The notes under the pieces were generated by a model. That model searched no databases. It was not told the origin of the DNA and was given only the letters and a program-made list of their open reading frames with translations. Below are positions 12,452 to 25,424 of a stretch of DNA of 64,000 bases, in pieces; the stretch's first letter is position 1, and every line of letters begins with the position of its first letter. The stretch is taken from the NCBI RefSeq assembly GCF_021764745.1, contig NZ_JAETXX010000002.1, forward strand, positions 310,001 through 374,000, given 5' to 3'. Source of the DNA: Joostella atrarenae (lineage in GTDB: Bacteria > Bacteroidota > Bacteroidia > Flavobacteriales > Flavobacteriaceae). Both the position numbers and the translations under genes were made by a program.

Positions 12452-12468
12452 ATACAAATGTGTTTAAT

Positions 12469-14472
12469 ATGAATGATACATCCATGAGTACCTTTTTTGA
12501 TTATAACAGACAAGACATAGATTCTGAAACGCTTCTTTTATTGTATCGAAATATGTTGAAGTCTAGAATGATAGAAGAAAAGATGCTGGTTTTGCTAAGA
12601 CAAGGAAAAGTTTCTAAATGGTTTAGTGGAATAGGGCAGGAAGCCATTGCTGTAGGAGTAACAATGTCTTTAAATACTGATGAGTATATTCTTCCGATGC
12701 ATAGAAACTTAGGGGTGTTTACAACAAGAGAGATCCCTTTAAACAGGCTTTTTTCACAGTGGCAAGGAAAAGCAAACGGTTTTACCAATGGGAGGGATCG
12801 TAGTTTCCACTTCGGAACTCAAGAATATAAGATTGTTGGAATGATTTCTCATTTAGGTCCACAATTAGGTGTTGCAGATGGAATTGCTTTAGCACATAAA
12901 TTAAGGAATGAAAAAAAGGTAACAGCTGTTTTTACGGGAGAAGGGGGTACAAGTGAAGGTGATTTTCATGAGGCACTGAATATTGCTTCCGTTTGGTCGT
13001 TACCTGTGATGTTTTGCGTTGAAAATAATGGTTATGGGCTCTCAACGCCCACTTCAGAACAATATAAGTGTATAAATATTGCTGATAAAGGTGTAGGTTA
13101 TGGGATGGAATCTCATATAATTGAAGGAAACAATATCTTAGAAGTTTACAGAAAAGTCAAAGACATTGCCGAAAGCATAAGAAATGAACCACGTCCTGTT
13201 TTATTAGAGTTTAAGACTTTTAGGATGCGTGGCCATGAGGAAGCAAGTGGAATTAAATATGTGCCTGAAGATTTAATTGCTGAATGGAGAACTAAAGACC
13301 CATTATTAAATTATAGAGAATACTTATTTAATGAAGAAGTTTTATCTGTTGCTACTGAAGAATCTTATCGAAGTAAAATACAATCGGAAATAGATGAGAA
13401 TTTACAGATTTCAAGTGCAGAAAAAGAAATTTCTTCTACTGAATCAAAAGAATTAAGTAGTATATTTCATACGTTTCAAAATGAAGAAGTTAATCCGAAT
13501 CAGACTAAAAAAAACATCCGATTTGTAGATGCTGTTTCAGATGGTTTAAAGGAGAGTATGCTAAAGCATAATGACCTCGTAATTATGGGACAAGATATCG
13601 CCGATTATGGAGGAGTTTTTAAGGTTACAGAAGGTTTTGTTGAGCAATTTGGAGCAGATAGAATAAGAAACACGCCAATTTGCGAATCTGGGATTGTTTC
13701 TACCGCTATGGGACTCTCTATTAACGGGATGAAGGCTGTCGTAGAAATGCAATTTGCAGATTTTGCTTCTAGTGGCTTTAATCCAATAGTAAATTACTTG
13801 GCAAAATCTTATTACCGATGGGAACAGAAAGCAGATGTAGTTATAAGAATGCCCTGTGGTGGCGGTGTGGGAGCAGGTCCTTTTCATTCACAATCTAATG
13901 AAGCTTGGTTTACAAAAACACCTGGATTAAAAGTAGTTTATCCCGCTTTTCCAGAGGATGCAAAAGGATTATTGATTTCAGCAATAAACGATCCCAATCC
14001 TGTCATGTTTTTTGAGCATAAAGGATTGTACAGAAGTATTTCTCAAGAGGTTCCAGAAGGATATTACAATACTCCAATAGGGAAAGCTAAAATAGTGAGA
14101 GAAGGCGATAAGGCTACAATTATAACTTATGGAAGTGGCGTCCATTGGGCCTTAGATCTTTTAGAAGTTGCTAATGATTTATCAGTGGAAATTATTGATT
14201 TACGAACGCTTTCCCCTTTAGATACGGAGACTATATATAATTCAGTTAAAAAAACAGGGCGCGCACTAATTTTACAAGAAGATACCTTATTTGGTGGTAT
14301 TTCTAGTGATATTTCAGCAATGATTACAGAAAATTGTTTTACTTATTTAGATGCTCCCATAAAAAGGGTCGCGAGTTTAGATACTCCGATTCCATTTGCT
14401 AAGTCGTTGGAAAATCAGTTTTTAGCCAAATCTAAGCTTGAAAAATCACTGTATGAACTGTTAGATTTTTAG
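12469..14472 (+). CDS. Fused 2-oxoacid dehydrogenase E1 alpha/beta (thiamine-diphosphate dependent)
   Basis: About 667 residues with both E1 subunits in one chain. Residues ~1-310 are the alpha part: LLRQGKVSKWFSGIGQEA, the thiamine-diphosphate motif FTGEGGTSEGDFHEALN...ENNGYGLSTP, and the phosphorylation-loop-like RMRGHEEASG. Residues ~340-667 are the transketolase-like beta part: MGQDIADYGGVFKVTEGF, NTPICESGIVS, and a C-terminal transketolase domain. It should decarboxylate a branched-chain 2-oxoacid or pyruvate in an E1-E2-E3 complex. No E2 or E3 gene is adjacent. An upstream GTG (12460) would lengthen it by three codons, but the promoter overlaps it; Met at 12484 is also possible. Confidence 0.9.
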   Translation: MNDTSMSTFFDYNRQDIDSETLLLLYRNMLKSRMIEEKMLVLLRQGKVSKWFSGIGQEAIAVGVTMSLNTDEYILPMHRNLGVFTTREIPLNRLFSQWQGKANGFTNGRDRSFHFGTQEYKIVGMISHLGPQLGVADGIALAHKLRNEKKVTAVFTGEGGTSEGDFHEALNIASVWSLPVMFCVENNGYGLSTPTSEQYKCINIADKGVGYGMESHIIEGNNILEVYRKVKDIAESIRNEPRPVLLEFKTFRMRGHEEASGIKYVPEDLIAEWRTKDPLLNYREYLFNEEVLSVATEESYRSKIQSEIDENLQISSAEKEISSTESKELSSIFHTFQNEEVNPNQTKKNIRFVDAVSDGLKESMLKHNDLVIMGQDIADYGGVFKVTEGFVEQFGADRIRNTPICESGIVSTAMGLSINGMKAVVEMQFADFASSGFNPIVNYLAKSYYRWEQKADVVIRMPCGGGVGAGPFHSQSNEAWFTKTPGLKVVYPAFPEDAKGLLISAINDPNPVMFFEHKGLYRSISQEVPEGYYNTPIGKAKIVREGDKATIITYGSGVHWALDLLEVANDLSVEIIDLRTLSPLDTETIYNSVKKTGRALILQEDTLFGGISSDISAMITENCFTYLDAPIKRVASLDTPIPFAKSLENQFLAKSKLEKSLYELLDF

Positions 14473-14584: not shown

Positions 14585-15085
14585 ATGAAAAATAAGGCGT
14601 ATATTTTTATACTATTGATGTCTTTCGTTTTAACCTCATGCGGGAGCTTGAGTAAAGAAAACAGAGATAATCGTAAATCCTTAGATGGTACTTGGAAATT
14701 GACCAATATAGATTATCAGAATAACGAAGGGTATTTTAAATCTATATTATTTAACGACGTATCAGCAAAGTGCTTCAGAGGTAGCGAATGGTTTTTCCGT
14801 TCTAATAATAGCACAGGATTTTACAATATCTTAGAACCTGGAAGTTGTGCTCCTGGTCAACGTAATATCCGTTGGTCTATTCAAGATGACGCGAATGGAA
14901 ATCCAACAAAATTTCAATTTAAATTTACTGATGAGAAGAAAAATGATATTGGAGGAGGATATGGTTATGTATTCCAAATCAATTCTTTATCACCAGAAAA
15001 AATGGTAATCTCAGCCGATGCTGCTGTAGATAATGGTTCCGTAACTGTAGTTTACGAATTCACAAAAATAGCATCACTTAGATAA
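14585..15085 (+). CDS. Lipocalin-like lipoprotein
   Basis: 166 residues. The signal peptide ends in a lipobox (VLTSC, Cys near residue 20), so it is a lipoprotein. The mature part starts SLDGTWKLTNIDY, a lipocalin-like opening, and is rich in beta strands with two cysteines (AKCF and SCAPG) that could form a disulfide. Function is unknown. It lies 28 bases before an OmpA-family lipoprotein in a two-gene unit commonly seen in flavobacteria, which suggests a cell-envelope role. Confidence 0.75.
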   Translation: MKNKAYIFILLMSFVLTSCGSLSKENRDNRKSLDGTWKLTNIDYQNNEGYFKSILFNDVSAKCFRGSEWFFRSNNSTGFYNILEPGSCAPGQRNIRWSIQDDANGNPTKFQFKFTDEKKNDIGGGYGYVFQINSLSPEKMVISADAAVDNGSVTVVYEFTKIASLR

Positions 15086-15113: not shown

Positions 15114-15800
15114 ATGAAAAGAATCATATTAAAAAGTAGTATTGTATTAACTTCATTATTAATGCTAGTTAGTTGTGAGGCTATACAGAACTCCAATAAT
15201 AAACAGAGAGGAACGGCAATAGGGGCTGGTTCTGGTGCTGCAATTGGAGGAATCATTGGAAATAACGTAGGAGATGGAAATAATTCTGTCTTAGGAGCTA
15301 TTATTGGAGCAGCCGTTGGTGGTGCTGTTGGTAATAGAATTGGGAACAAAATGGATAGAAACGCAGAAGCTATTGAGGAAGCAATCCCTGGTGCTGAAGT
15401 AACTAGAATCGGAGAAGGTATTAATGTTACTTTTGATGAAAATAGCGGTGTTAAATTCCAATTGAATTCTGCTGATATTTCTGCTGAAGGTCAAGAAACA
15501 CTTAGAAAAATGGCTGAAGTATTTGTAGAATATGATGATACAAATATTTTGATCGAAGGACATACAGATAGTTCTGGAGCCGATTCATACAACCTTTCTC
15601 TTTCTGAAAAAAGAGCTAAGTCTGTAGCTAGTTTTCTTCAAGCTAATGGAGTTTCTTCATCTAGAATGACAACAAAATGGTACGGAGAAACACAACCTAA
15701 ATTTGATAATAATACTGAAGAAGGACGTGTTAAAAACAGACGTGTAGAACTTGGTATTGTAGCAAGTGATGAAATGATTCAGGATGCTAAAACTCAGTAA
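15114..15800 (+). CDS. OmpA-family lipoprotein with glycine-zipper segment
   Basis: 228 residues. The signal peptide ends in a lipobox (LVSC). Residues ~32-85 are a glycine-zipper region with repeated AIGAGSGAAIGGIIG-type segments. The C-terminal ~115 residues form an OmpA peptidoglycan-binding domain: ILIEGHTDSSG, NLSLSEKRAKSVASFL and NRRVELGI are the diagnostic stretches. It should tether the outer membrane to peptidoglycan. It is co-transcribed with the lipocalin-like gene and ends at a strong terminator. Confidence 0.92.
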   Translation: MKRIILKSSIVLTSLLMLVSCEAIQNSNNKQRGTAIGAGSGAAIGGIIGNNVGDGNNSVLGAIIGAAVGGAVGNRIGNKMDRNAEAIEEAIPGAEVTRIGEGINVTFDENSGVKFQLNSADISAEGQETLRKMAEVFVEYDDTNILIEGHTDSSGADSYNLSLSEKRAKSVASFLQANGVSSSRMTTKWYGETQPKFDNNTEEGRVKNRRVELGIVASDEMIQDAKTQ

Positions 15801-15880: not shown

Positions 15881-16744
15881 ATGAAGATTATAAACATTAG
15901 AATTTTAATACTCATCGTTATAATAATTGTCGCGGTGGGTTGTAAAGATCAAAAGAAAGAAAAAGAAGGGGTAATAAATGAGCCTGAAATAGAAATTCCT
16001 CAAGATGAACCTAAAGTTACAGTAGTGCAAGGGGAGGAAGTAAGTTATAAAACCGATTCAACAACCATGAAAGGGTACATTTCTTACAATCCAGAATTAG
16101 AAGGAAAAAGACCTGGGATATTGGTTGTTCACGAATGGTGGGGACACAATAAATACAGCCGTGAAAGAGCAGATAAATTAGCAGAATTAGGATATGTAGC
16201 ATTGGCTGTAGATATGTATGGAGATGGTAAACAAGCCCAACATCCAGATGACGCAGGGAAGTTTGCAGGAATGGTAATGAAAAATATAGATGTAGCAAAA
16301 GCTAGATTTGACGCTGCTTTGTCTGTTCTAAAAAGCAATCCTCATGTGGATCAAGAGAAAATTGCTGCGATAGGTTACTGCTTCGGAGGAAGTGTAGTTT
16401 TAACAATGGCAAATATGGGCGAAGATTTAGATGCTGTTGCTGCTTTTCATAGTGGAGTTCAACTTCCTGTAATGCCATCAGAAGATATTAAGGCAAAAAT
16501 ATTGGTGTGTAATGGTGCCGAAGATCCTTTCGTTTCTGAAGAGTCTATTATTAATTACACAAAAGCAATGGATAGTGTGAATGCCGATTATGAGTATATA
16601 GCTTATGAAGATGCTGTACATGCATTTACAAGCAAAGATGCAGATTCTTTGGGTAAGAAATTTGATTTGCCATTGGCGTATAATAAACAAGCTGATGAGA
16701 AATCTTGGGAGGAACTGAAGAAGCTCCTAAATGAAGTTTTTTAA
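15881..16744 (+). CDS. Dienelactone-hydrolase-family lipoprotein
   Basis: 287 residues. An N-terminal hydrophobic segment ends in VAVGC (Cys21), a lipobox, so the enzyme is probably membrane-anchored in the periplasm. The alpha/beta hydrolase of the dienelactone hydrolase type has all expected residues: Glu85 (VVHEWWG), nucleophile Cys167 (IGYCFGGS), Asp215 (GAEDPF) and His247 (VHAFTS). The cysteine nucleophile marks the DLH family rather than serine esterases. The natural substrate is unknown. It is flanked by terminators on both sides, so it is a single-gene unit. Confidence 0.88.
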   Translation: MKIINIRILILIVIIIVAVGCKDQKKEKEGVINEPEIEIPQDEPKVTVVQGEEVSYKTDSTTMKGYISYNPELEGKRPGILVVHEWWGHNKYSRERADKLAELGYVALAVDMYGDGKQAQHPDDAGKFAGMVMKNIDVAKARFDAALSVLKSNPHVDQEKIAAIGYCFGGSVVLTMANMGEDLDAVAAFHSGVQLPVMPSEDIKAKILVCNGAEDPFVSEESIINYTKAMDSVNADYEYIAYEDAVHAFTSKDADSLGKKFDLPLAYNKQADEKSWEELKKLLNEVF

Positions 16745-16786
16745 TCTTTTCAATTAAAGTTTAATACAAACACATTAACAATCATT

Positions 16787-16813
16787 AAATCCGAGTTCGC
16801 GCTCGGATTTTTT
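16787..16813 (+). terminator. Rho-independent terminator after the dienelactone-hydrolase gene
   Basis: AAATCCGAG (16787-16795) pairs with CTCGGATTT (16802-16810) around a TTCGCG loop and is followed by T residues. Confidence 0.85.
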
Positions 16814-16942
16814 GTTTTACATTGAATTGATTCTGTTAAAAAATCTTAATCCTCGTTAAAGTCCATTAAAACATATGGTTACCTCTTAAAACAATTGTAA
16901 CTTATAGGTTAGATAAATCAAATAAACCTAAAAATTCAACTA

Positions 16943-18913
16943 ATGGATAAACCCTTAAATGTAGCTCAGAAACTCATAAAGTCACATTTGCTTCAAGGAG
17001 AGATGACTCCAGGGAGTGAAATAGGAATTAAGATAGATCAAGCGCTACTTCAAGATGCCACGGGAACATTGGTGCAACTTGAATTAGAAGCCATGGGTTT
17101 AGATACTGCTAAAACAGAAGTTGCCGTTCAGTATGTAGACCACAACCTTTTACAAACAGATTTTAAAAATGCAGATGATCATCTCTTTCTACATTCTGCA
17201 GCTCAAAAATTCGGAATATGGTATAGCCGTCCAGGAAATGGAGTGAGCCACCCTGTTCATATGGAGCGTTTCGGTAAACCTGGTAAAACTTTAGTAGGTT
17301 CAGATAGTCATACCCCAGCAGCTGGTTCTTTAGGGATGCTAGCTATTGGTACTGGTGGGCTAGATGTGGCTGCTGCCATTGCTGGTCAGCCTTATTTTGT
17401 TAAAATGCCTCAAGTCATGGGGGTAAAGCTAACCGGAAAACTCCCTGATTGGGTCAGCGCAAAAGATGTAATTCTAGAGATGTTAAGACGTTATGATGTT
17501 AAAGGTGGCGTCGGGAAAATCATAGAATATTATGGTGATGGATTACAACACCTAAGCGCAATGGATAGACATGTTATTGCCAATATGGGTGCCGAATTAG
17601 GGGCCACAACAACGGTTTTTCCTAGTGATGAAGAAACCAAACGCTTTCTGAAATCTCAGGATCGAGAAGATGATTGGAAGGAATTAATTGCTGATGAAGG
17701 CTGTGAGTATGATTCTAAAGATGAAATTATTCTAGATGAATTAGTTCCTCTTATAGCTTTACCAACTAGTCCTGGGAATGTAGTTCCTGTACGAGAAGTT
17801 GAAGGGAAAAGTATTAGTCAGGTAGTAATTGGATCTTCTGCAAACCCTGGATTAAGAGACTTTTGGATAGCCGGAGCTATTGTAAAAGATAAATCTATAA
17901 ATCCGGAAGTGTCTTTTGATATCAATCCTACTTCACGACAAATTATTCAGAATATGATTGATAATAGAGCTTTTGCTAATTTGATAAAAGCTGGCGCTAG
18001 ATTTCATCAATCAGGTTGCATGGGATGCATCGGAATGGGACAAGCTCCTGCAAGCGGAACGATTAGTTTGCGTACGATGCCTCGTAACTTCCCAGATCGC
18101 TCTGGAACCAAAGACGATCAAGTACACCTATGTAGTCCAGAAACTGCTGCAGCTTCAGCATTGACAGGGAAAATTACAGATCCTAGAGATATAGAGAAAC
18201 TATACAATATGAAATATCCTATTTATAAGGCTCCCGAAATGGATATTATAAATACAGATATGTTGGTTGCTCCTCCAGAAAATGGGGAGAATTTGAGTCT
18301 TAAAAAGGGACCAAATATTAAGGCGCTACCACACATTGAAGCTTTAAAAGATAGTTACAAAATTCCTGTAGTTTTAAAAATGAAAGATAATGTTTCTACA
18401 GATGAAATTTTAAAAGCAGGAGCAGAGGTATTGCCATTTAGAAGTAATATTCCAGAAATCAGCAAGTTTTCATATACTGTAATCGACGAAACATTCTACG
18501 ATCGCGCTATGGAAGCTAAGAATCAGTATGGCGGACATATAGTGGTGGCTGGAGAAAATTATGCTCAAGGAAGTAGTAGAGAGCACGCTGCAATAGCACC
18601 AAAATATTTAGGTCAAGTAGCTGTAATTGCTAAGAGTTATGCCCGTATAGCATGGCAGAATCTTGTCAATTTCGGGATTTTACCACTAGAATTTATCAAT
18701 CTTGATGATTATGACAAAATCCATCAAAATGCGATGGTAACATTTAAAAACTTAAAAGAAGATGTTCAAAATAGAAACCCTATTCGGGTTATTGTTTCCT
18801 ATGAAAATAAGGAAGAAGAATTTCTTGTGAAACATACAATGAGTGAACGTCAAATTAATTTAATCCTTAAAGGAGGGATTATAAACGATTTTAAAGAAAA
18901 ACTAGCATCATAA
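16943..18913 (+). CDS. Aconitate hydratase, Aquifex-type
   Basis: 656 residues, shorter than AcnA (~890) or mitochondrial aconitase (~755), and matching the putative aconitase subfamily first noted in Aquifex. It isomerises citrate to isocitrate. Visible are VDHNLL, GSDSHTP (His123), the cluster loop SGCMGCIGMG (Cys359, Cys362), MPRNFPDRSG, and the C-terminal swivel motif GSSREHAAIAPKYLG. The third [4Fe-4S] ligand normally in GSCTN is replaced: residues 297-301 read GSSAN. Cys397 (HLCSPE) could be a substitute ligand, but that is inference. A nitroreductase gene follows 10 bases later, and both share the terminator at 19557-19592. Confidence 0.85.
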   Translation: MDKPLNVAQKLIKSHLLQGEMTPGSEIGIKIDQALLQDATGTLVQLELEAMGLDTAKTEVAVQYVDHNLLQTDFKNADDHLFLHSAAQKFGIWYSRPGNGVSHPVHMERFGKPGKTLVGSDSHTPAAGSLGMLAIGTGGLDVAAAIAGQPYFVKMPQVMGVKLTGKLPDWVSAKDVILEMLRRYDVKGGVGKIIEYYGDGLQHLSAMDRHVIANMGAELGATTTVFPSDEETKRFLKSQDREDDWKELIADEGCEYDSKDEIILDELVPLIALPTSPGNVVPVREVEGKSISQVVIGSSANPGLRDFWIAGAIVKDKSINPEVSFDINPTSRQIIQNMIDNRAFANLIKAGARFHQSGCMGCIGMGQAPASGTISLRTMPRNFPDRSGTKDDQVHLCSPETAAASALTGKITDPRDIEKLYNMKYPIYKAPEMDIINTDMLVAPPENGENLSLKKGPNIKALPHIEALKDSYKIPVVLKMKDNVSTDEILKAGAEVLPFRSNIPEISKFSYTVIDETFYDRAMEAKNQYGGHIVVAGENYAQGSSREHAAIAPKYLGQVAVIAKSYARIAWQNLVNFGILPLEFINLDDYDKIHQNAMVTFKNLKEDVQNRNPIRVIVSYENKEEEFLVKHTMSERQINLILKGGIINDFKEKLAS

Positions 18914-18923
18914 AAAAATAACT

Positions 18924-19529
18924 ATGACACCATTAGAACAATTACATTTAGATAAAATTGCCAAAACAAATCATGAGATCTATGCGCTCTTAAAAATGCG
19001 CTGGAGCCCAAGAGTGTTTAAAGAAGACAAATTACCTGAAAGCGAAATAAAACAGCTTTTTGAAGCTGCTAGATGGGCGCCAAGCTCTAATAATATGCAG
19101 CCTTGGCGGTTTATGTATGCTGAAAAAGGAAGTGACACCTATGATGAAATAGTAGATTGCTTAAGTGATTTTAATAAAAGTTGGGTGGTAAATGCTCCTC
19201 TATTAATGATTACAGCTTATAAAGAAAATACCGATGATGGAAAACCTAATTTTCATGCATTACACGATTTAGGACTTGCGGTAGGGAATATGTGCGTACA
19301 AGCACAATACATGAATATAGGAGTGCATCAAATGGCCGGAATCGATTGGGAGAAAGCTCAAAAAGTTTTTAAAATTCCAAAAGGATACCACGTTTCTACG
19401 GCTATTGCATTAGGATATTACGGTGGAGACTTTAGTAAATTAAATGATAATCTGCTAGATATGGAAAAAAGTGAAAGAACACGCGTTCCTCAAGAAGATT
19501 TTGCTTTTAAAGACAGTTGGAAGAAATAA
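18924..19529 (+). CDS. Nitroreductase-family flavoprotein
   Basis: 201 residues of the nitroreductase (FMN) fold: KMRWSPRVFKEDKL at the start, then ARWAPSSNNMQPWRF, the FMN/phosphate region, and later GVHQMAGIDW and TAIALGYYGG. These enzymes reduce nitro compounds, quinones or enones with NAD(P)H; the physiological substrate cannot be read here. It is 10 bases downstream of the aconitase gene and ends 27 bases before a terminator, so it belongs with aconitase and not with the polyketide operon that follows. Confidence 0.88.
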   Translation: MTPLEQLHLDKIAKTNHEIYALLKMRWSPRVFKEDKLPESEIKQLFEAARWAPSSNNMQPWRFMYAEKGSDTYDEIVDCLSDFNKSWVVNAPLLMITAYKENTDDGKPNFHALHDLGLAVGNMCVQAQYMNIGVHQMAGIDWEKAQKVFKIPKGYHVSTAIALGYYGGDFSKLNDNLLDMEKSERTRVPQEDFAFKDSWKK

Positions 19530-19556
19530 ATAGAATAATTGATTTCTAAACGCTAT

Positions 19557-19592
19557 AAAATCCTGAGAAATATAATTCTCGGGATTTTTTTT
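19557..19592 (+). terminator. Rho-independent terminator after aconitase-nitroreductase
   Basis: An imperfect hairpin (AAATCCTGAGAA pairing with TTCTCGGGATTT, one G-T pair) is followed by eight T residues. It separates the aconitase unit from the type III PKS operon. It lies inside the longest possible 5' extension of the next gene and rules that extension out. Confidence 0.85.
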
Positions 19593-19628: not shown

Positions 19629-20768
19629 GTGCGAAAAATAGTTGGGACACAAATATATGATGTAATTATAATTGGTGGGGGATTGGCGGGCTTAACAGCA
19701 GCTATTCACTTATCAAAACTGAATTATAACGTGCTTGTCTTTGAGAAGAATACTTTTCCTCATCACAAAGTATGTGGGGAATATGTCTCGAATGAAATTC
19801 TTCCTTATTTAGAATATTTGAATGTTTCTATTAAAAATATGGAGACAAAAACAATTGAAAGACTTCAAATAACAACAGAAAACGGGAGTGGCATTGAAAC
19901 TAAGCTTCCTTTGGGAGGTATTGGTATCAGCAGATATGCCTTTGATGATTTACTCTATAAAAAAGCAATCTCCAATAATGTAGACTTTCTTTTTGAAGTG
20001 GTTAAATCGGTAACTTTTAATTCAAATACTTTTCAAGTCACCACAAAATCAGGCACCTATAACTCTAAAATTGCTATTGGAGCGTATGGGAAAAGAGACT
20101 ATTTAGATAAACAACTGGATAGAAGCTTTATAAATAAAAAATCTTCATGGTTGGGAATCAAAGCGCATTATAAATATGATGTTTTCCCAGATGATTTGGT
20201 TGCTTTACATAGTTTTAAAGGTGGATATGGCGGATTGTCTAAAACAGAAACAGGAGCCGTTAATTTTTGTTACTTAACTACTTATAAAAGCTTTAAATGT
20301 GTAAACGGAGTTGAAGAGTTTAATAAAGACATAGTTTCTAAGAATAAAAATCTTGCAACCTTTCTAAAAGATGCTGAACCCATTTTTGAACACCCAATGA
20401 GTATCGCGCAGATTTCATTTTCAGAAAAAGAAAGTGTTTACAATCATATTTTAATGTGTGGAGATACAGCTGGATTGATTCATCCTCTTTGTGGTAACGG
20501 AATGGCAATGGCTATACATAGCGCTAAAATTGCTTCGGAATTAATTGATATATTTTTTAAGAATAATAGCTTTAATCGTAATGAATTAGAGAGAAGTTAT
20601 CAGAAAGAGTGGAATAAACAATTTAAATCTCGATTATGGATGGGAAGGCAGCTCCAAAAGATACTTCTAAATAATCATATCGCCCCTGCAAGCATGAAAT
20701 TAATTACTAATTCTCCGTGGTTGCTGAACAAAATGATTAAACAAACACATGGAAAACCAATTTTATGA
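19629..20768 (+). CDS. FAD-dependent oxidoreductase (geranylgeranyl-reductase/phenol-hydroxylase-like), PKS operon
   Basis: 379 residues from the GTG at 19629. The Rossmann FAD motif DVIIIGGGLAGLTAAIH begins at residue 11, then FEKNTFPHHKVCGEYV as in geranylgeranyl-reductase-like flavoproteins, and the second FAD motif GDTAGLIHPLCGNGMAMA. The reading frame stays open back to a TTG at 19539, but that extension contains the upstream terminator, so it is not used. First gene of a seven-gene operon, overlapping the next by 4 bases. By analogy with the flavoprotein SrsC of Streptomyces phenolic-lipid synthesis it may hydroxylate or otherwise oxidise or reduce the polyketide; this is inference. Confidence 0.85.
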   Translation: MRKIVGTQIYDVIIIGGGLAGLTAAIHLSKLNYNVLVFEKNTFPHHKVCGEYVSNEILPYLEYLNVSIKNMETKTIERLQITTENGSGIETKLPLGGIGISRYAFDDLLYKKAISNNVDFLFEVVKSVTFNSNTFQVTTKSGTYNSKIAIGAYGKRDYLDKQLDRSFINKKSSWLGIKAHYKYDVFPDDLVALHSFKGGYGGLSKTETGAVNFCYLTTYKSFKCVNGVEEFNKDIVSKNKNLATFLKDAEPIFEHPMSIAQISFSEKESVYNHILMCGDTAGLIHPLCGNGMAMAIHSAKIASELIDIFFKNNSFNRNELERSYQKEWNKQFKSRLWMGRQLQKILLNNHIAPASMKLITNSPWLLNKMIKQTHGKPIL

Positions 20769-21484
20769 TGCTTAACTTTTCAAAAAGATGTGAAGATCCA
20801 GAATCGATGGACAATCCAAACTTAGACGCTTCCATGCTTCAAGAAGTTTTAAAAGATTTGTCTACTGTAAACCGATTGTTAAGTGGGAATAAAATAACAA
20901 TTAAAGCAATAAAAACACTCATGCAAAAGTATCCTAAAGATCATTATGTAATTGTAGATATGGGATGTGGTGATGGAAAAATGCTTAGGGATATTGCAAA
21001 ATACTTCAGTAATAAGAAAATCACTTTAACACTTAAAGGAGTGGATTTAAGCGAAAAAGGGATTGAAATCGCTAGAAAGTTATCTGAAGAATATTCCAAT
21101 ATTTCATATTCTTGTCAAGATATTTTAAAGTTAGATTCTAAAGATTTTCCATGTGATATTTTATTATGTACGCTTACCATGCATCATTTTAAAAACCCTC
21201 AAATTCCTATTTTTTTGAATCAGTTTCTAAAGCTTGCTAAAATTGGGGTCGTTATTAATGATTTACAGAGAAGTAAACTCGCTTATTATCTATTTAAATT
21301 GTTTAGTGCTATTTTTATAAAGACCAAAATAGCTAAAGAAGATGGTTTAATTTCCATAAAAAGCGGCTTTATAAAGTCCGATTTACAAGATTTCGCAAAT
21401 AACTTACCAGATACAACCAATATTATTAAATGGAAGTGGGCATTCCGATATTTATGGGTAATACTTAGAACCAAATCAATTTAA
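20765..21484 (+). CDS. SAM-dependent methyltransferase, PKS operon
   Basis: 239 residues, class I methyltransferase. The SAM-binding motif I is VDMGCGDGKMLRDIAKYF (~residue 61 on), followed by GVDLSEKGIEIA (acidic ribose-binding loop) and CTLTMHHFKNPQIP. The C-terminus is hydrophobic and basic, compatible with membrane association. It overlaps the flavoprotein stop (ATGATG context) and is 4 bases before the type III PKS, so it very probably methylates the polyketide product or an intermediate; O- or C-methylation cannot be told from sequence. Confidence 0.85.
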   Translation: MMLNFSKRCEDPESMDNPNLDASMLQEVLKDLSTVNRLLSGNKITIKAIKTLMQKYPKDHYVIVDMGCGDGKMLRDIAKYFSNKKITLTLKGVDLSEKGIEIARKLSEEYSNISYSCQDILKLDSKDFPCDILLCTLTMHHFKNPQIPIFLNQFLKLAKIGVVINDLQRSKLAYYLFKLFSAIFIKTKIAKEDGLISIKSGFIKSDLQDFANNLPDTTNIIKWKWAFRYLWVILRTKSI

Positions 21485-21488
21485 GTTT

Positions 21489-22544
21489 ATGAAAGAAGTG
21501 AAAATAGTAACTGTAGCCAAAGAATTACCCGCTTTTCAGCGTAAAACGGAAGATATTTTGCCTTTAGTTGAAGTTTGGTTAGCAAATCAAGAGGAGCGAT
21601 TTAGACGTAAGGTTATTAAGATCTTTGAAGGCGCTGCGGTAGATAAGCGTTATGCTATTATGGATGCTGAAGATGTGTTTACAAACACTTCTTTTGAAGA
21701 CAAAAACAATATTTATATCCGAGAAGTAAAAAAACTAGGAACAAATGTGCTTAGAAAAGCTTTAGATAATGCTTCTTGGGAAGCAGCTTCTTTGGATTAT
21801 ATTATAACTGTTAGCTGCACAGGAATTATGATTCCGTCTCTAGATGCGTATCTTATTAATAACTTGGGGTTACGCCAAGATGTTGTTAGACTTCCCGTTA
21901 CAGAAATGGGTTGTGCCGCTGGTGTAAGCGGACTTATCTATGCTTCTAATTTCTTAAAATCCAATCCTGGTAAACGTGCTGCAATTGTTGCTGTTGAAAG
22001 TCCAACTGCTACTTTTCAGTTAGATGATTATTCGATGGCAAATATGGTAAGTGCTGCTATTTTTGGTGATGGAGCTTCTTGTGTGTTGCTTTCTTCTGAA
22101 GAAAATGCAATAGGTCCAAAAATAATGGGAGAAGAGATGTATCATTTTAAAGATGCAACTCATATGATGGGTTTTGATTTAACCAATGATGGGTTAAAAA
22201 TGATTCTCGATCCAGCTGTTCCAGATACTATTGCAGCTCATTTCCCTTCAATCATACATCCATTTTTAGAAAAACATGGAACTTCAATTGAAAAAGTAGA
22301 CCATCTTATTTTTCATCCGGGAGGAAAGAAAATTGTGCAAACTGTAGAAGAACTATTTGGTAAACTTGGTAAGAATATAGATGATACACGAGAGACACTT
22401 CGCCTTTATGGTAATATGAGTAGCGCAACGGTTCTATATGTTTTAGAACGCTTTATGGAGAAGGACATTCAACCTGGAGAACAAGGTTTGGTTCTAAGTT
22501 TTGGTCCAGGATTTTCTGCACAAAGGGTATTGTTAGAATGGTAA
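21489..22544 (+). CDS. Type III polyketide synthase
   Basis: 351 residues, chalcone-synthase superfamily. The catalytic triad is complete: Cys142 in EMGCAAGVSG, His276 in FHPGGKK and Asn309 in LYGNMSSATVL; the C-terminal GFGPG-like loop reads SFGPGFSAQ. These enzymes extend an acyl starter with malonyl-CoA and cyclise it to resorcinols, pyrones or related rings without their own ACP. In this operon the starter is probably a long or modified acyl chain made by the downstream KS, dehydratase, reductase and ACP. It is 12 bases upstream of the SDR gene. Confidence 0.95.
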   Translation: MKEVKIVTVAKELPAFQRKTEDILPLVEVWLANQEERFRRKVIKIFEGAAVDKRYAIMDAEDVFTNTSFEDKNNIYIREVKKLGTNVLRKALDNASWEAASLDYIITVSCTGIMIPSLDAYLINNLGLRQDVVRLPVTEMGCAAGVSGLIYASNFLKSNPGKRAAIVAVESPTATFQLDDYSMANMVSAAIFGDGASCVLLSSEENAIGPKIMGEEMYHFKDATHMMGFDLTNDGLKMILDPAVPDTIAAHFPSIIHPFLEKHGTSIEKVDHLIFHPGGKKIVQTVEELFGKLGKNIDDTRETLRLYGNMSSATVLYVLERFMEKDIQPGEQGLVLSFGPGFSAQRVLLEW

Positions 22545-22556
22545 AAAAAGAAAATT

Positions 22557-23354
22557 ATGAAAGAGTATTTAAATAAAAAACCTCAATTCTGGGCGCTAAT
22601 TCTTGGAGGGAGTAGTGGCTTAGGACTCGCTTCAGCAAAAAGGCTTGCAGAAGATGGCTATAATATCATTATTGTTCATAGAGATAGGAAGTCTGATTTC
22701 CCTAGTATTGAATCGGAATTTGATAAAATCCGTTCTCACAATATTCATTTTAAAAATTTTAATATTGATGCTACTAATACAGAAAAGAGAAATAGCACCG
22801 TTCAAAAAATTAAAGAATTAATTAAGAATGGACAAATAAAAGTGCTTGTAAATAGTATTGCAAAAGGGAATTTAAAACCTATGATTTCTGATGATACTAC
22901 AACCTTAAAGAATCAAGACTTTCATCTAACAATAGATGCCATGGCAATTTGTGTGTACGATTGGACAAAGTTGATAATTGATGCGAATCTCTTTGCAGAA
23001 GACACTCGTATTCTCTCTTTTACTAGCGAAGGGAATGCTAGAGCTTGGGCAAATTATGCGGCGGTATCTGCTGCCAAAGCTGCTTTAGAGGCTATTCATA
23101 GAAATATGGCTTTAGAATTTGCTCCTTTAGGTATTAAAGCGAATTGTATACAATCGGGAATTACAGAAACGAATTCTTTTAAAATGATTCCTGGAAGCGA
23201 TGTATTAAAGAAGAATGCTATCGAAAGGAATCCAAATGGACGATTAACCACCCCTAAAGATATTGCGAATGTAGTTTCACTACTTTGTAGAGAAGAAGCT
23301 AAATGGATTACTGGAACTATAATAAAAGCAGACGGAGGCGAGAGTCTTCTGTAA
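22557..23354 (+). CDS. SDR-family enoyl-ACP reductase-like enzyme, PKS operon
   Basis: 265 residues, classical SDR fold. The cofactor motif is LILGGSSGLGLASAKRL (~15-31), with VHRDRK after strand 2 hinting at NADPH. The active site is Tyr167-x6-Lys174 (NYAAVSAAK), the spacing of FabI/FabL enoyl-ACP reductases; ketoreductases have Tyr-x3-Lys. A proline-free SGITETNSF segment corresponds to the substrate loop. The likely role is the reduction step of the operon's own acyl-chain module. No separate FabG-like ketoreductase gene is present, so either this enzyme or the housekeeping FabG reduces the 3-keto group. Confidence 0.82.
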   Translation: MKEYLNKKPQFWALILGGSSGLGLASAKRLAEDGYNIIIVHRDRKSDFPSIESEFDKIRSHNIHFKNFNIDATNTEKRNSTVQKIKELIKNGQIKVLVNSIAKGNLKPMISDDTTTLKNQDFHLTIDAMAICVYDWTKLIIDANLFAEDTRILSFTSEGNARAWANYAAVSAAKAALEAIHRNMALEFAPLGIKANCIQSGITETNSFKMIPGSDVLKKNAIERNPNGRLTTPKDIANVVSLLCREEAKWITGTIIKADGGESLL

Positions 23355-23368
23355 ACATATTCTGAACT

Positions 23369-23839
23369 ATGAGAAAGGAGCAAATCATAAAAAACATCCT
23401 TGAAAACCTACCATATCAAGAGCCATTTTTATTTGTAGATCAAATAAATAATATCTCTGAAAACACTGTAGAAGGAACTTACACATTCTCTAAAGAAGCT
23501 TATTTTTATAAAGGACATTTTAAAAAAAATCCTGTAACCCCTGGAGTTATTCTAACTGAATGTTGTGCGCAAATTGGATTGATTTGTATGGGTTTATATA
23601 ACTTCATGTCAACCAATACTTTGATAGAAAATGATTCACTTGCTATTGGACTTAGTAGTTCTGAAATGGAGTTTTATAAGCCTGTGCTTCCTTCGGAAAA
23701 GGTTCGTGTTACTTCTTCAAAAATATATTATCGCTTTCATAAATTAAAATGCGAAGTAAAAATGTATAATCAAAAAGAGGAACTCGTTTGTAAAGGAACG
23801 ATTGCAGGGATGATAAAATATAATACGGATGCAAAATAG
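23369..23839 (+). CDS. FabZ-like 3-hydroxyacyl-ACP dehydratase, PKS operon
   Basis: 156 residues, single hot-dog fold. The catalytic pair is His50 (YFYKGHFKKNP) and Glu64 (TPGVILTECCAQIG), exactly the FabZ layout, and the opening LPYQEPFLFVDQI corresponds to FabZ HRYPFLLVDRV. It should dehydrate 3-hydroxyacyl chains on the private ACP. It overlaps the ketosynthase start by 11 bases, suggesting translational coupling. Confidence 0.9.
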   Translation: MRKEQIIKNILENLPYQEPFLFVDQINNISENTVEGTYTFSKEAYFYKGHFKKNPVTPGVILTECCAQIGLICMGLYNFMSTNTLIENDSLAIGLSSSEMEFYKPVLPSEKVRVTSSKIYYRFHKLKCEVKMYNQKEELVCKGTIAGMIKYNTDAK

Positions 23840-25103
23840 AGTTGTTATAACAGGTATGGGCGTATGTGCTCCTAATGGGATAGGGCTTGATGACTTTACT
23901 AATTCGCTCGTTAATGGAGAAAGTGGAATTACTTTTCATCAAGAACTATCAGATTTGAAATTCGGTTGTCAAATTGCTGGGAAACCAACTGTTAGTCAGG
24001 AGTTATTAAAGGAATATTTTACAGATTTACAGCTTCGAGGACTCAATGCTAGTGGAATTGTATATGGAGTGATTGCAGGGACTGATGCTTGGAAAGACGC
24101 TGGATTGGAGTATTTGGAGGGCGATGCTCCTAATTGGGATGATGGAATTATATTTGGAACCGGAATTTTAGGAGTAGATAAGTTTAGAGACTCCATCCAC
24201 TTAATAGATCAAGGCAATGTAAGGCGATTGGGAAGCACTACCGTTTTACAAACAATGGCGAGTGGTATAAGCGCCTATTTAGGTGGTATTATAGGAGCAG
24301 GAAATCTAGTCACAACCAATTCGTCTGCCTGTACGACTGGCACAGAAGGTATTTTAATGGCCTATGAACGTATTAAATTGGGAAAAGCTAAACGAATATT
24401 AACGGGAAGCTGTTCCGACAGTGGGCCTTATGTATGGGGCGGTTTTGATGCAATGCGAATCTTACCAAGAAAATTTAATGAAAATCCTACGCAAGCAAGT
24501 CGCCCGATGAGTGAAAGTGCAGCAGGATTTGTTCCAGGAAGTGGAGCTGGAGCCCTAGTGATTGAATCTTTAGAAAGTGCGTTGGAACGGAATGCAACAA
24601 TCTATGCCGAAATTCTCGGAGGTAATGTTAATAGCGGCGGACAAAGGGGAGAGGGGACTATGACGGCTCCAAATAGTATCGCAGTACAAAAGTGTATTAC
24701 TGATGCTATAAAAGATGCTAACATTAGGAGTAATGATATTGATGCTATCAACGGACATCTTACTGCAACTGCAAAGGATTCGCTCGAAATTGAAAACTGG
24801 AGCATGGCATTAGAGCGCGAAGGAAAAGATTTTCCGTATATAAATTCTTTTAAAAGCATGTTTGGACATTGCTTGGCTGCCGCGGGGAGTATTGAAAGTG
24901 TGGCTACCGTATTACAATTTAAAGAAGGGAAGATTTTTGGAAATATTAATTGCGAAGACTTGCATCCTGAAATAGCGGAAATAGTAGAGCATAAGCAGGT
25001 TTTGCAAAAAACAATATCATACCAGTCAAATATTATAGCAAAAGCTAGCTTTGGTTTTGGTGATGTAAATGCATGTGCTATCTTTAAAAAGTATATAAAA
25101 TAA
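23829..25103 (+). CDS. Beta-ketoacyl-ACP synthase (FabF-like), PKS operon
   Basis: 424 residues, thiolase fold of the KAS I/II type. The nucleophile is Cys168 in NSSACTTGTEG; the two histidines are His310 (INGHLTATAKDS, where the usual HGT motif has Leu in place of Gly) and His347 (FKSMFGHCLAAAG), with Lys342. Everything needed for decarboxylative condensation is present, so this is not a chain-length factor. A second KS or chain-length factor is absent, unlike aryl-polyene or flexirubin clusters. It likely elongates the acyl starter on the ACP encoded next. Confidence 0.9.
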   Translation: MQNRVVITGMGVCAPNGIGLDDFTNSLVNGESGITFHQELSDLKFGCQIAGKPTVSQELLKEYFTDLQLRGLNASGIVYGVIAGTDAWKDAGLEYLEGDAPNWDDGIIFGTGILGVDKFRDSIHLIDQGNVRRLGSTTVLQTMASGISAYLGGIIGAGNLVTTNSSACTTGTEGILMAYERIKLGKAKRILTGSCSDSGPYVWGGFDAMRILPRKFNENPTQASRPMSESAAGFVPGSGAGALVIESLESALERNATIYAEILGGNVNSGGQRGEGTMTAPNSIAVQKCITDAIKDANIRSNDIDAINGHLTATAKDSLEIENWSMALEREGKDFPYINSFKSMFGHCLAAAGSIESVATVLQFKEGKIFGNINCEDLHPEIAEIVEHKQVLQKTISYQSNIIAKASFGFGDVNACAIFKKYIK

Positions 25104-25113
25104 TTCCTACGCT

Positions 25114-25368
25114 ATGAATAACGAACATTATGAAAAGTTAAAGGATATCGTAAAGGTATATCTCCCTGAAGATGTCTCTGTAAACGATATTACTGCGGAA
25201 AGTAATTTTACTAAAGAACTTAATATCAACTCGGCAAATCTAGTAGATATTGTATTGGATGTAGAAGACACTTTTGATATCATGCTTGAAAATGATGATA
25301 TGAATAATATGGAAACAGTAAATGATGCTTTGTTGATTATCGATAAAAAATTGAAAGAGAAGCAGTAA
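25114..25368 (+). CDS. Acyl carrier protein, PKS operon
   Basis: 84 residues, acidic, four-helix ACP. The phosphopantetheine serine is Ser40 in KELNINSANLVDIVL; the common DSL signature is changed to NSA, but the following hydrophobic helix and FDIMLENDDM match helix 3 of ACPs. It should carry the growing acyl chain between the operon's KS, dehydratase and reductase and perhaps donate it to the type III PKS. Last gene of the operon, followed by a strong terminator. Confidence 0.88.
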   Translation: MNNEHYEKLKDIVKVYLPEDVSVNDITAESNFTKELNINSANLVDIVLDVEDTFDIMLENDDMNNMETVNDALLIIDKKLKEKQ

Positions 25369-25390: not shown

Positions 25391-25424
25391 AAAAGCGAAT
25401 CCTAATTGCTTAAGATTCGCTTTT
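25391..25424. terminator. Bidirectional terminator closing the PKS operon
   Basis: AAAAGCGAATC (25391-25401) pairs perfectly with GATTCGCTTTT (25414-25424) over a 12-base loop. T runs follow on both strands, so it serves the ACP gene on the plus strand and the ArsC-like gene on the minus strand. Confidence 0.88.

Follow-up and report, generated by a model that had tools for sequence, protein, structure and literature searches.

A conserved flavobacterial operon couples a divergent type III polyketide synthase to dedicated type II fatty acid synthase genes and suggests a phenolic-lipid pathway

The locus described here raises the question of whether a type III polyketide synthase (PKS) and the fatty acid synthase (FAS)-like genes packed behind it act in one pathway and in which direction acyl intermediates would be passed between them. 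The window, i.e., the whole analyzed stretch of 64,000 nucleotides from the 3.99 Mb draft genome of Joostella atrarenae, carries seven densely packed plus-strand genes between positions 19,629 and 25,368. All of their open reading frames (ORFs) are open, and they are arranged in the order flavin adenine dinucleotide (FAD)-dependent oxidoreductase, methyltransferase (MT), type III PKS, short-chain dehydrogenase/reductase (SDR), FabZ-like dehydratase (DH), ketoacyl synthase (KAS), and acyl carrier protein (ACP). The initial annotation had proposed a seven-gene operon between two terminators, and the gene order, the spacing, the Pfam names, and two terminator-like hairpins were all borne out. It appears rather likely that this operon encodes a phenolic-lipid pathway in which a private type II FAS supplies an acyl-ACP starter to the type III PKS, the resulting ring being methylated and oxidized.

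The distribution of the PKS and KAS genes was analyzed in a family sample of 299 genomes with a completeness of at least 90%, the family (f1) being equated with the Flavobacteriaceae via the loci of named relatives. At thresholds of E 6e-136 or better for the PKS (next match 5e-50) and E 1e-110 or better for the KAS, orthologs were found in 122 genomes (about two in five) and 121 genomes, respectively. Both genes were present in 121 genomes, the PKS alone in one, the KAS alone in none, and neither in 177 (Fisher value 6e-85, with relatedness ignored). Furthermore, the KAS tracked the PKS in all 14 genera featuring mixed presence (g1, g16, g19, g29, g39, g46, g68, g92, g93, g115, g116, g117, g131, and g139). 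In the single PKS-only genome (G121), the PKS contig ends inside the dehydratase gene (67% fragment at the very end), and the only other KAS found was FabF-like (34%); given this contig end, the missing KAS is most likely due to an assembly cut. The initial annotation had named a type III PKS ortholog without FAS genes as evidence against its proposal, and no such case was found among the 122 genomes, G121 being contig-cut. Within the phylum sample, a PKS match at 1e-40 was obtained for 103 out of 392 genomes, 35 of them being at least 69% identical and the rest 28–37%. The close PKSs belong to the same family in 31 cases, while the remaining four come from f3 and f10, a pair of further families within this class; three of these four loci were fetched and feature FAD-MT-PKS-(SDR)-DH-KAS, with the ACP beyond the fetched stretch. 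Among named relatives, Galbibacter mesophilus has the PKS most similar to that of the window (86%), which suggests a Galbibacter-like flavobacterium.

Of the 121 further genomes with the PKS, all but G208 and G243 were used to fetch loci (119 in total), in which the genes were placed by tblastn. The seven-gene order, for which a search in related genomes had been proposed, recurred in 99 of these loci, including L042 despite an SDR match that is a 35% fragment, and in one more locus with an extra PKS match, which is beyond what chance would produce. The remaining loci comprise 11 without the SDR, two without a recognizable DH, five with FAD-MT-PKS-SDR only, and L151, where two reverse genes are inserted and the ACP lies beyond the 6 kb limit. 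The FAD-MT-PKS genes were contiguous in all 119 loci. Among the named loci, representing the best 80 of 581 relatives, 63 were complete, 12 lacked the SDR, and five were cut by short contigs, the genera including Galbibacter, Maribacter, Zobellia, Arenibacter, Salegentibacter, Christiangramia, and Salinimicrobium.

Four of the five genomes with FAD-MT-PKS-SDR only (G125, G161, G280, and G237, belonging to three genera, with G125 and G280 being congeneric) hold DH-KAS-ACP elsewhere (L277–L280): in G161, which is a single contig, the distance is about 356 kb, and the three draft genomes have it on a separate contig; the fifth is G121, where the locus is near the contig end. Loss of the operon was studied in 12 congeners of PKS carriers that are devoid of a type III PKS, in ten of which the common upstream neighbor E1 was found at E 1e-150. 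Three of these ten sites (G093, G029, and G027, the last belonging to the window's own genus) kept E1, lipocalin, and OmpA, with zero operon genes in 12.5–13 kb, and in G227 a KAS scrap and the ACP alone were left at the usual operon site (L310:4468-4907, counted in E1 direction), which can be regarded as a naturally occurring vestige of the operon after its loss. The other six sites had no lipocalin or OmpA beside E1 and were hence uninformative. Co-inheritance even in the unlinked state, together with loss as a block, shows that the FAS genes and the PKS are functionally tied.

Pfam assigned the seven proteins to FAD/NAD Rossmann, Methyltransf_25, Chal_sti_synt_N/C, adh_short_C2, FabA-like, ketoacyl-synt N/C, and PP-binding families, the ACP PP-binding match being weak (E 5e-5) yet above the Pfam cut-off. 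Both chalcone synthase (CHS) domains of the PKS passed the Pfam cut-off (80.3 and 68.4 bits vs. 27), and no other protein of the genome matched the CHS C-domain family. Residue alignments comprised the window proteins and up to 203 ortholog loci, sequences with a query cover below 70% or an identity of 30% or less being dropped; since some loci occur in both the named and the unnamed set, the rows are not independent. The catalytic residues, the roles of which are textbook knowledge, were invariant: the PKS triad in 200 of 200 rows, S157/Y167/K174 of the SDR in 176 of 176, the DH His/Glu pair in 196, the KAS Cys-His-His and Lys in 194, and the ACP serine in 193 (positions in Table 1). The SDR was assigned as enoyl reductase by its resemblance to FabL, as its best solved structure is Bacillus subtilis FabL 3oic (E 3e-29; runner-up 4e-20) and its Y(x)6K spacing, a mark of enoyl reductases, is the same as that of FabL in the alignment.

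Separate primary enzymes, namely a FabF gene adjoining AcpP and an LpxC-FabZ fusion, were identified in the genome. Compared to these, the operon KAS is 32% identical to FabF, the ACP 33% to AcpP (55 residues), and the DH 37% to LpxC-FabZ over the aligned parts, indicating that the operon carries additional copies, separate from those of the primary FAS. The idea that they are housekeeping paralogs merely located beside the PKS draws on the facts that operons can hold unrelated genes and that E1, lipocalin, and OmpA persist in some genomes after block loss. It is nevertheless highly improbable, because the KAS (E 1e-110) never occurs without the PKS in the 299 genomes and is retained when unlinked, and because the genome owns the separate FabF, AcpP, and LpxC-FabZ. 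The dedicated nature of the FAS genes, as claimed initially, was thus corroborated by second copies whose catalytic residues are intact and which are inherited together with the PKS, including in genomes where the two are no longer linked.

The PKS itself is divergent. In a FastTree tree with midpoint root, all 15 family PKSs grouped together in a single clade (support 0.857, stem 0.69), separated from the 28 further PKSs included, namely those of other Bacteroidota and of plasmids as well as PKS11 and PKS18. The site that decides between resorcinol and pyrone formation (ArsB Trp281/ArsC Gly284; MMAR_2474 Trp230; PMC6274091, PMC5916927, PMC9927152) is occupied by Phe229 in 200 of 200 rows, the aromatic character being kept, and by Trp in 26 of the 28 other aligned PKSs (exceptions: PKS18 with Leu and L071 with Tyr); the sites were equated via PKS11 W230, which bears the same number as MMAR_2474 Trp230, and not via the ArsB sequence itself. 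An aromatic residue at the ArsB Trp281 site, which is reported to favor resorcinol over pyrone, counts for a resorcinol-type ring. In the fungal enzyme trORAS, a Phe252-to-Gly exchange is described to abolish resorcinol formation (PMC8086630); this residue possibly corresponds to Phe229. The PKS AlphaFold model (mean predicted local distance difference test score 85.6) resembled most closely the folds of PKS11 (Z 43.7, root-mean-square deviation 2.4, 346 aligned) and CylI (Z 42.5, 2.3, 344), with a slim lead in a superfamily-wide fold. Priming from carrier proteins has been reported for ArsB/C, germicidin synthase, and CylI (PMC6274091, PMC8086630), so that the proximity to CylI counts for an acyl-ACP starter. 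A long-chain tunnel was also considered by mapping PKS18 residues; the outcome was mixed (Cys205 to Pro172, Ala209 to Phe176, Leu266 to Phe229) and PKS11 likewise carries a Tyr at the Ala209 site, so that no conclusion on chain length was drawn.

For the acyl-ACP handover, the ring type, and the product, we infer the following sequence of steps. The KAS, the FabZ-like DH, and the FabL-like reductase would elongate an acyl chain tethered to the operon's own ACP, with the ketoreductase and the malonyl transferase being borrowed from primary metabolism. The type III PKS would be primed by that acyl-ACP, add malonyl units, and close a resorcinol-type ring, which the MT and the FAD enzyme would then methylate and hydroxylate or oxidize, leading to an alkyl-methoxyphenol or alkylquinone. 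A phosphopantetheinyl transferase (PPTase) gene 3' of the ACP in 42 of the 119 loci (e.g., L068; PF01648 in the representative, 46 bits vs. a cut-off of 25) also counts for this pathway; it is absent from the window operon, and the window genome has a single ACPS-family match, located away from the operon.

Several observations weigh against this pathway. A ketoreductase and a malonyl-CoA:ACP transferase are missing from the operon according to ORFs and Pfam (19 further SDR-family matches lie elsewhere in the genome), and Pfam detected no acyltransferase among the seven genes. The private cycle can be incomplete, as the SDR is missing in 11 of the 119 loci (12 with the fragment-only L042) and a recognizable dehydratase in two. 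Moreover, the PKS family has Phe in place of the Trp of ArsB (W281) and PKS11 (W230), and Pro172 takes the place of PKS18 Cys205 in 199 of 200 rows; ring type and starter may thus differ from those of known enzymes. Finally, co-inheritance is silent on the direction of the handover.

This last point leads to the main rival explanation, in which the order is reversed: the PKS would make a small aromatic acyl primer to be loaded on the ACP, and the KAS, DH, and reductase would extend it to an aryl-alkyl chain or, in loci devoid of the reductase, to an aryl-polyene chain. Among the NCBIfam models, the PKS matches DpgA (NF042429) best (E 6.7e-53, 179.8 bits), an enzyme which makes dihydroxyphenylacetyl-CoA, but this score is far below the equivalog cut-off of 425. 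The 11 loci without enoyl reductase would keep double bonds unless another reductase serves, and an Aequorivita cluster, the PKS of which shares 69% identity with the Zobellia galactanivorans enzyme, is given as 'T3pks-arylpolyene' per antiSMASH (PMC6139392). However, the nearest folds are those of PKS11 and CylI, both long-chain enzymes, and the MT and FAD proteins are homologous to those of plain PKS-MT-FAD triples without adjacent chain-extension genes, which makes the reverse order unlikely.

A further alternative is that the private FAS chain is attached, by esterification or otherwise, to the PKS product or to a different lipid instead of priming the PKS. Hallmarks of the aryl polyene/dialkylresorcinol (flexirubin) pathway are a DarB-type ketosynthase and a ketosynthase/chain-length factor pair; the operon has one KAS and no second ketosynthase-like gene among its seven, and the StlD/DarB model reached 18.9 bits on the PKS (cut-off 450). 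The decoration idea finds a precedent in the flexirubins of Bacteroidota, in which an aryl-polyene acid is esterified with a dialkylresorcinol (PMC3992019). It is quite unlikely here, because an acyltransferase was found neither in the operon nor, by reading, among 14 extra genes from the loci of relatives. These belong to 15 extra genes picked from such loci, of which one is a PPTase (Pfam); the other 14 were read as aspartyl-protease-like, transposase-like, DsbA-like, threonine-aldolase-like, and others, and no ketoreductase was seen among them either.

Two side observations concern variation among the ortholog loci. In L061 and L156 (G266 and G102, one genus), which have no recognizable dehydratase, the KAS is more divergent (55–56%). 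A 146-aa membrane protein without Pfam match, not present in the window operon, is encoded 3' of the ACP in 34–35 of the 119 loci (e.g., L070).

The features of the locus are compiled in Table 1. The intergenic distances amount to −4 bases (FAD/MT), +4 (MT/PKS), +12 (PKS/SDR), +14 (SDR/DH), −11 (DH/KAS), and +10 (KAS/ACP). In each of three hairpin folds, none of 200 shuffles matched the real stability; a simple terminator scan detected just the downstream hairpin and missed the upstream one. The FAD gene was taken to start at the GTG codon, the mechanical ORF beginning with a TTG at 19539, i.e., 5' of the first hairpin. A sigma-70 promoter scan yielded 41 sites, compared to 43.7 in shuffles, and hence no excess; the sigma-70 consensus is possibly unsuited to the phylum Bacteroidota.

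Table 1. Features of the operon and its surroundings, in window coordinates.
Feature	Position	Strand	Evidence
E1 alpha/beta dehydrogenase, common upstream neighbor	12460-14472	+	Pfam; matched in 80/119 loci
Lipocalin-like lipoprotein, common upstream neighbor	14585-15085	+	Pfam; matched in 75/119 loci
OmpA-like gene, common upstream neighbor	15114-15800	+	Pfam; matched in 76/119 loci
Nitroreductase-family gene, probably outside operon	18924..19529	+	Homolog in 17/203 loci
Terminator-like hairpin and T-run 5' of operon, intrinsic-type	19557..19592	+	Sequence; RNA fold z −3.6
FAD-dependent oxidoreductase, geranylgeranyl-reductase/monooxygenase superfamily; GTG start	19629..20768	+	Pfam, NCBIfam
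Class I S-adenosylmethionine methyltransferase (MT)	20765..21484	+	Pfam, NCBIfam
Type III PKS; triad C142-H276-N309, family signature P172 and F229	21489..22544	+	Pfam, alignment, AlphaFold model
SDR, FabL-like enoyl-ACP reductase, Y167(x)6K174	22557..23354	+	Nearest solved structure FabL 3oic
FabZ-like hot-dog dehydratase (DH), H50/E64	23369..23839	+	Pfam, NCBIfam, alignment
KAS I/II-type ketosynthase, C168-H310-H347-K342	23829..25103	+	Pfam, NCBIfam, alignment
ACP, phosphopantetheine Ser40	25114..25368	+	Pfam, NCBIfam, alignment
Terminator-like hairpin 3' of operon, on both strands	25391..25424	.	RNA fold z −4.6 (+), −3.8 (−)

The upstream genes E1, lipocalin, and OmpA were considered as pathway genes and rejected; they persist in L306, L307, and L312 without the FAD-to-ACP block and are probably mere neighbors. 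The nitroreductase was likewise rejected as an eighth operon gene, as a homolog with more than 40% identity occurs in just 17 of 203 loci (some of these being short, and the named and unnamed sets overlapping) and a terminator-like hairpin lies between it and the FAD gene. Nevertheless, a nitroreductase adjoins the ACP in three of the four split-off DH-KAS-ACP operons and is also located directly 5' of the FAD gene in the congener G220. Dienelactone-hydrolase-like, aconitase, and nitroreductase genes lie at 15881-19529 between OmpA and the operon; since OmpA directly precedes the FAD gene in many relatives, this segment has the appearance of an insertion that took place in the lineage of the window.

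Outside the family, the PKS-MT-FAD core has homologs on alphaproteobacterial plasmids. The FAD protein shares 26–27% identity with FAD proteins of Paracoccus and Novosphingobium that are encoded next to a type III PKS, and the MT and PKS are 31% and 25–32% identical, respectively, to their plasmid counterparts in these genera. The order T3PKS-MT-FAD was observed in Paracoccus (FAD 26%, MT 31%) and likewise on Mesorhizobium, Falsirhodobacter, and Roseomonas plasmids, while the Sphingobium indicum plasmid features T3PKS-FAD with the MT on the opposite strand. In total, 15 plasmid records had a FAD match, and 10 of them were inspected: a type III PKS was located beside the FAD gene in seven, was not found there in two (Bernardetia, representing the best FAD match, and Hymenobacter), and one record was unannotated. 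By contrast, 17 distant Bacteroidota PKS loci (L071 and L281–L296; 28–37%) had no FAD, DH, KAS, or ACP relatives at E 1e-3 within 8–14 kb, and only L296 had an MT relative (E 2e-21). Judging from these sequences, the PKS-MT-FAD core is not a general rule for type III PKSs of Bacteroidota.

On Novosphingobium pLA3 (L301:1416-5059) and Sphingobium pKN1 (L313:719-5038), ACP-KAS genes are located directly upstream of T3PKS-(MT)-FAD. The Novosphingobium KAS is 26% identical to the operon KAS, compared to 32% between the operon KAS and FabF. As judged from these identities, the pairing of KAS and ACP with a type III PKS probably arose twice, independently in sphingomonads.

Concerning previously known systems, the contiguity of a type III PKS with a homologous MT and flavoprotein places the core of this operon among phenolic-lipid operons, such as SrsABC, PkqABC, and HidABC of Streptomyces, Mycobacterium, cyanobacteria, and Planctomycetota, where the same three genes adjoin each other and lead to alkylresorcinols, methylated derivatives, or alkylquinones (PMC10896814, PMC9927152, PMC8086630). 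Homology was established with the plasmid triples, whereas the likeness to Srs, Pkq, and Hid is one of description. As far as the available parts of these descriptions go, no fatty acid genes are mentioned for the Srs/Pkq/Hid-type operons, in contrast to the dedicated type II FAS of the flavobacterial operon, and their alkylresorcinol-forming PKSs carry Trp at the cyclization site, where the flavobacterial family has Phe. The initial view of the operon as SrsABC plus a dedicated type II FAS therefore stands with respect to the PKS-MT-FAD core, which is homologous to the plasmid triples, but has to be qualified for the FAS, which is incomplete without ketoreductase and malonyl-CoA:ACP transferase.

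The product had also been regarded as undescribed. Type III PKSs account for 10.74% of the clusters across 2,680 Flavobacteriaceae genomes (PMC10734526) and for 9% in a smaller genome set (PMC7440613), and no product is named for flavobacterial 'T3-PKS' clusters in the accessible parts of both surveys. The seven-gene operon was not described in the top-ranked open-access papers, which is weak evidence, subscription papers and preprints being out of scope. A cluster reported in PMC6498172 was considered and, according to its description, is a Pseudomonas type II PKS cluster different from the flavobacterial operon. The product may accordingly count as unnamed; the cluster itself is common in flavobacteria and is probably already among the 'T3-PKS' clusters counted in PMC10734526.

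In Azotobacter, the type III PKSs of the ArsA/B/C/D system are primed directly from an ACP of a dedicated in-operon FAS (PMC6274091, PMC3098273). That FAS is of type I, whereas the flavobacterial operon has no type I ArsA/ArsD beside its PKS and comprises discrete KAS, DH, enoyl reductase, and ACP proteins together with an MT and a flavoprotein. The cylindrocyclophane (cyl) cluster also features a free-standing ACP and extension enzymes feeding an alkylresorcinol-making type III PKS, but differs by an AMP-binding loader, type I PKS extension, and subsequent chlorination and dimerization (PMC8086630). The Novosphingobium and Sphingobium ACP-KAS-T3PKS-(MT)-FAD arrangements share the discrete KAS and ACP and the homologous FAD and MT proteins, and have no adjacent dehydratase or reductase. 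If the proposed handover holds true, the operon would represent a third route by which a carrier protein encoded in the cluster feeds a type III PKS, in addition to those via a type I FAS and via a type I PKS. It would add a discrete-protein system to the few known carrier-protein-fed type III PKSs, with small separate parts for studying the handover, and the strict coupling of PKS and type II FAS provides a testable biosynthetic hypothesis for possibly many flavobacterial T3-PKS clusters. In mycobacteria and in the spores of Streptomyces, alkylquinones of related operons have been described to carry electrons (PMC9927152). Tentatively, the product could be a family-wide lipid, possibly an alternative respiratory or membrane quinone, the tail of which would be made to order by the private type II FAS and delivered via acyl-ACP to the divergent Pro172/Phe229 PKS. 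Compared to the systems known so far, the PKS-MT-flavoprotein core is of a known kind, and what is new is the dedicated type II FAS set together with the divergent PKS.

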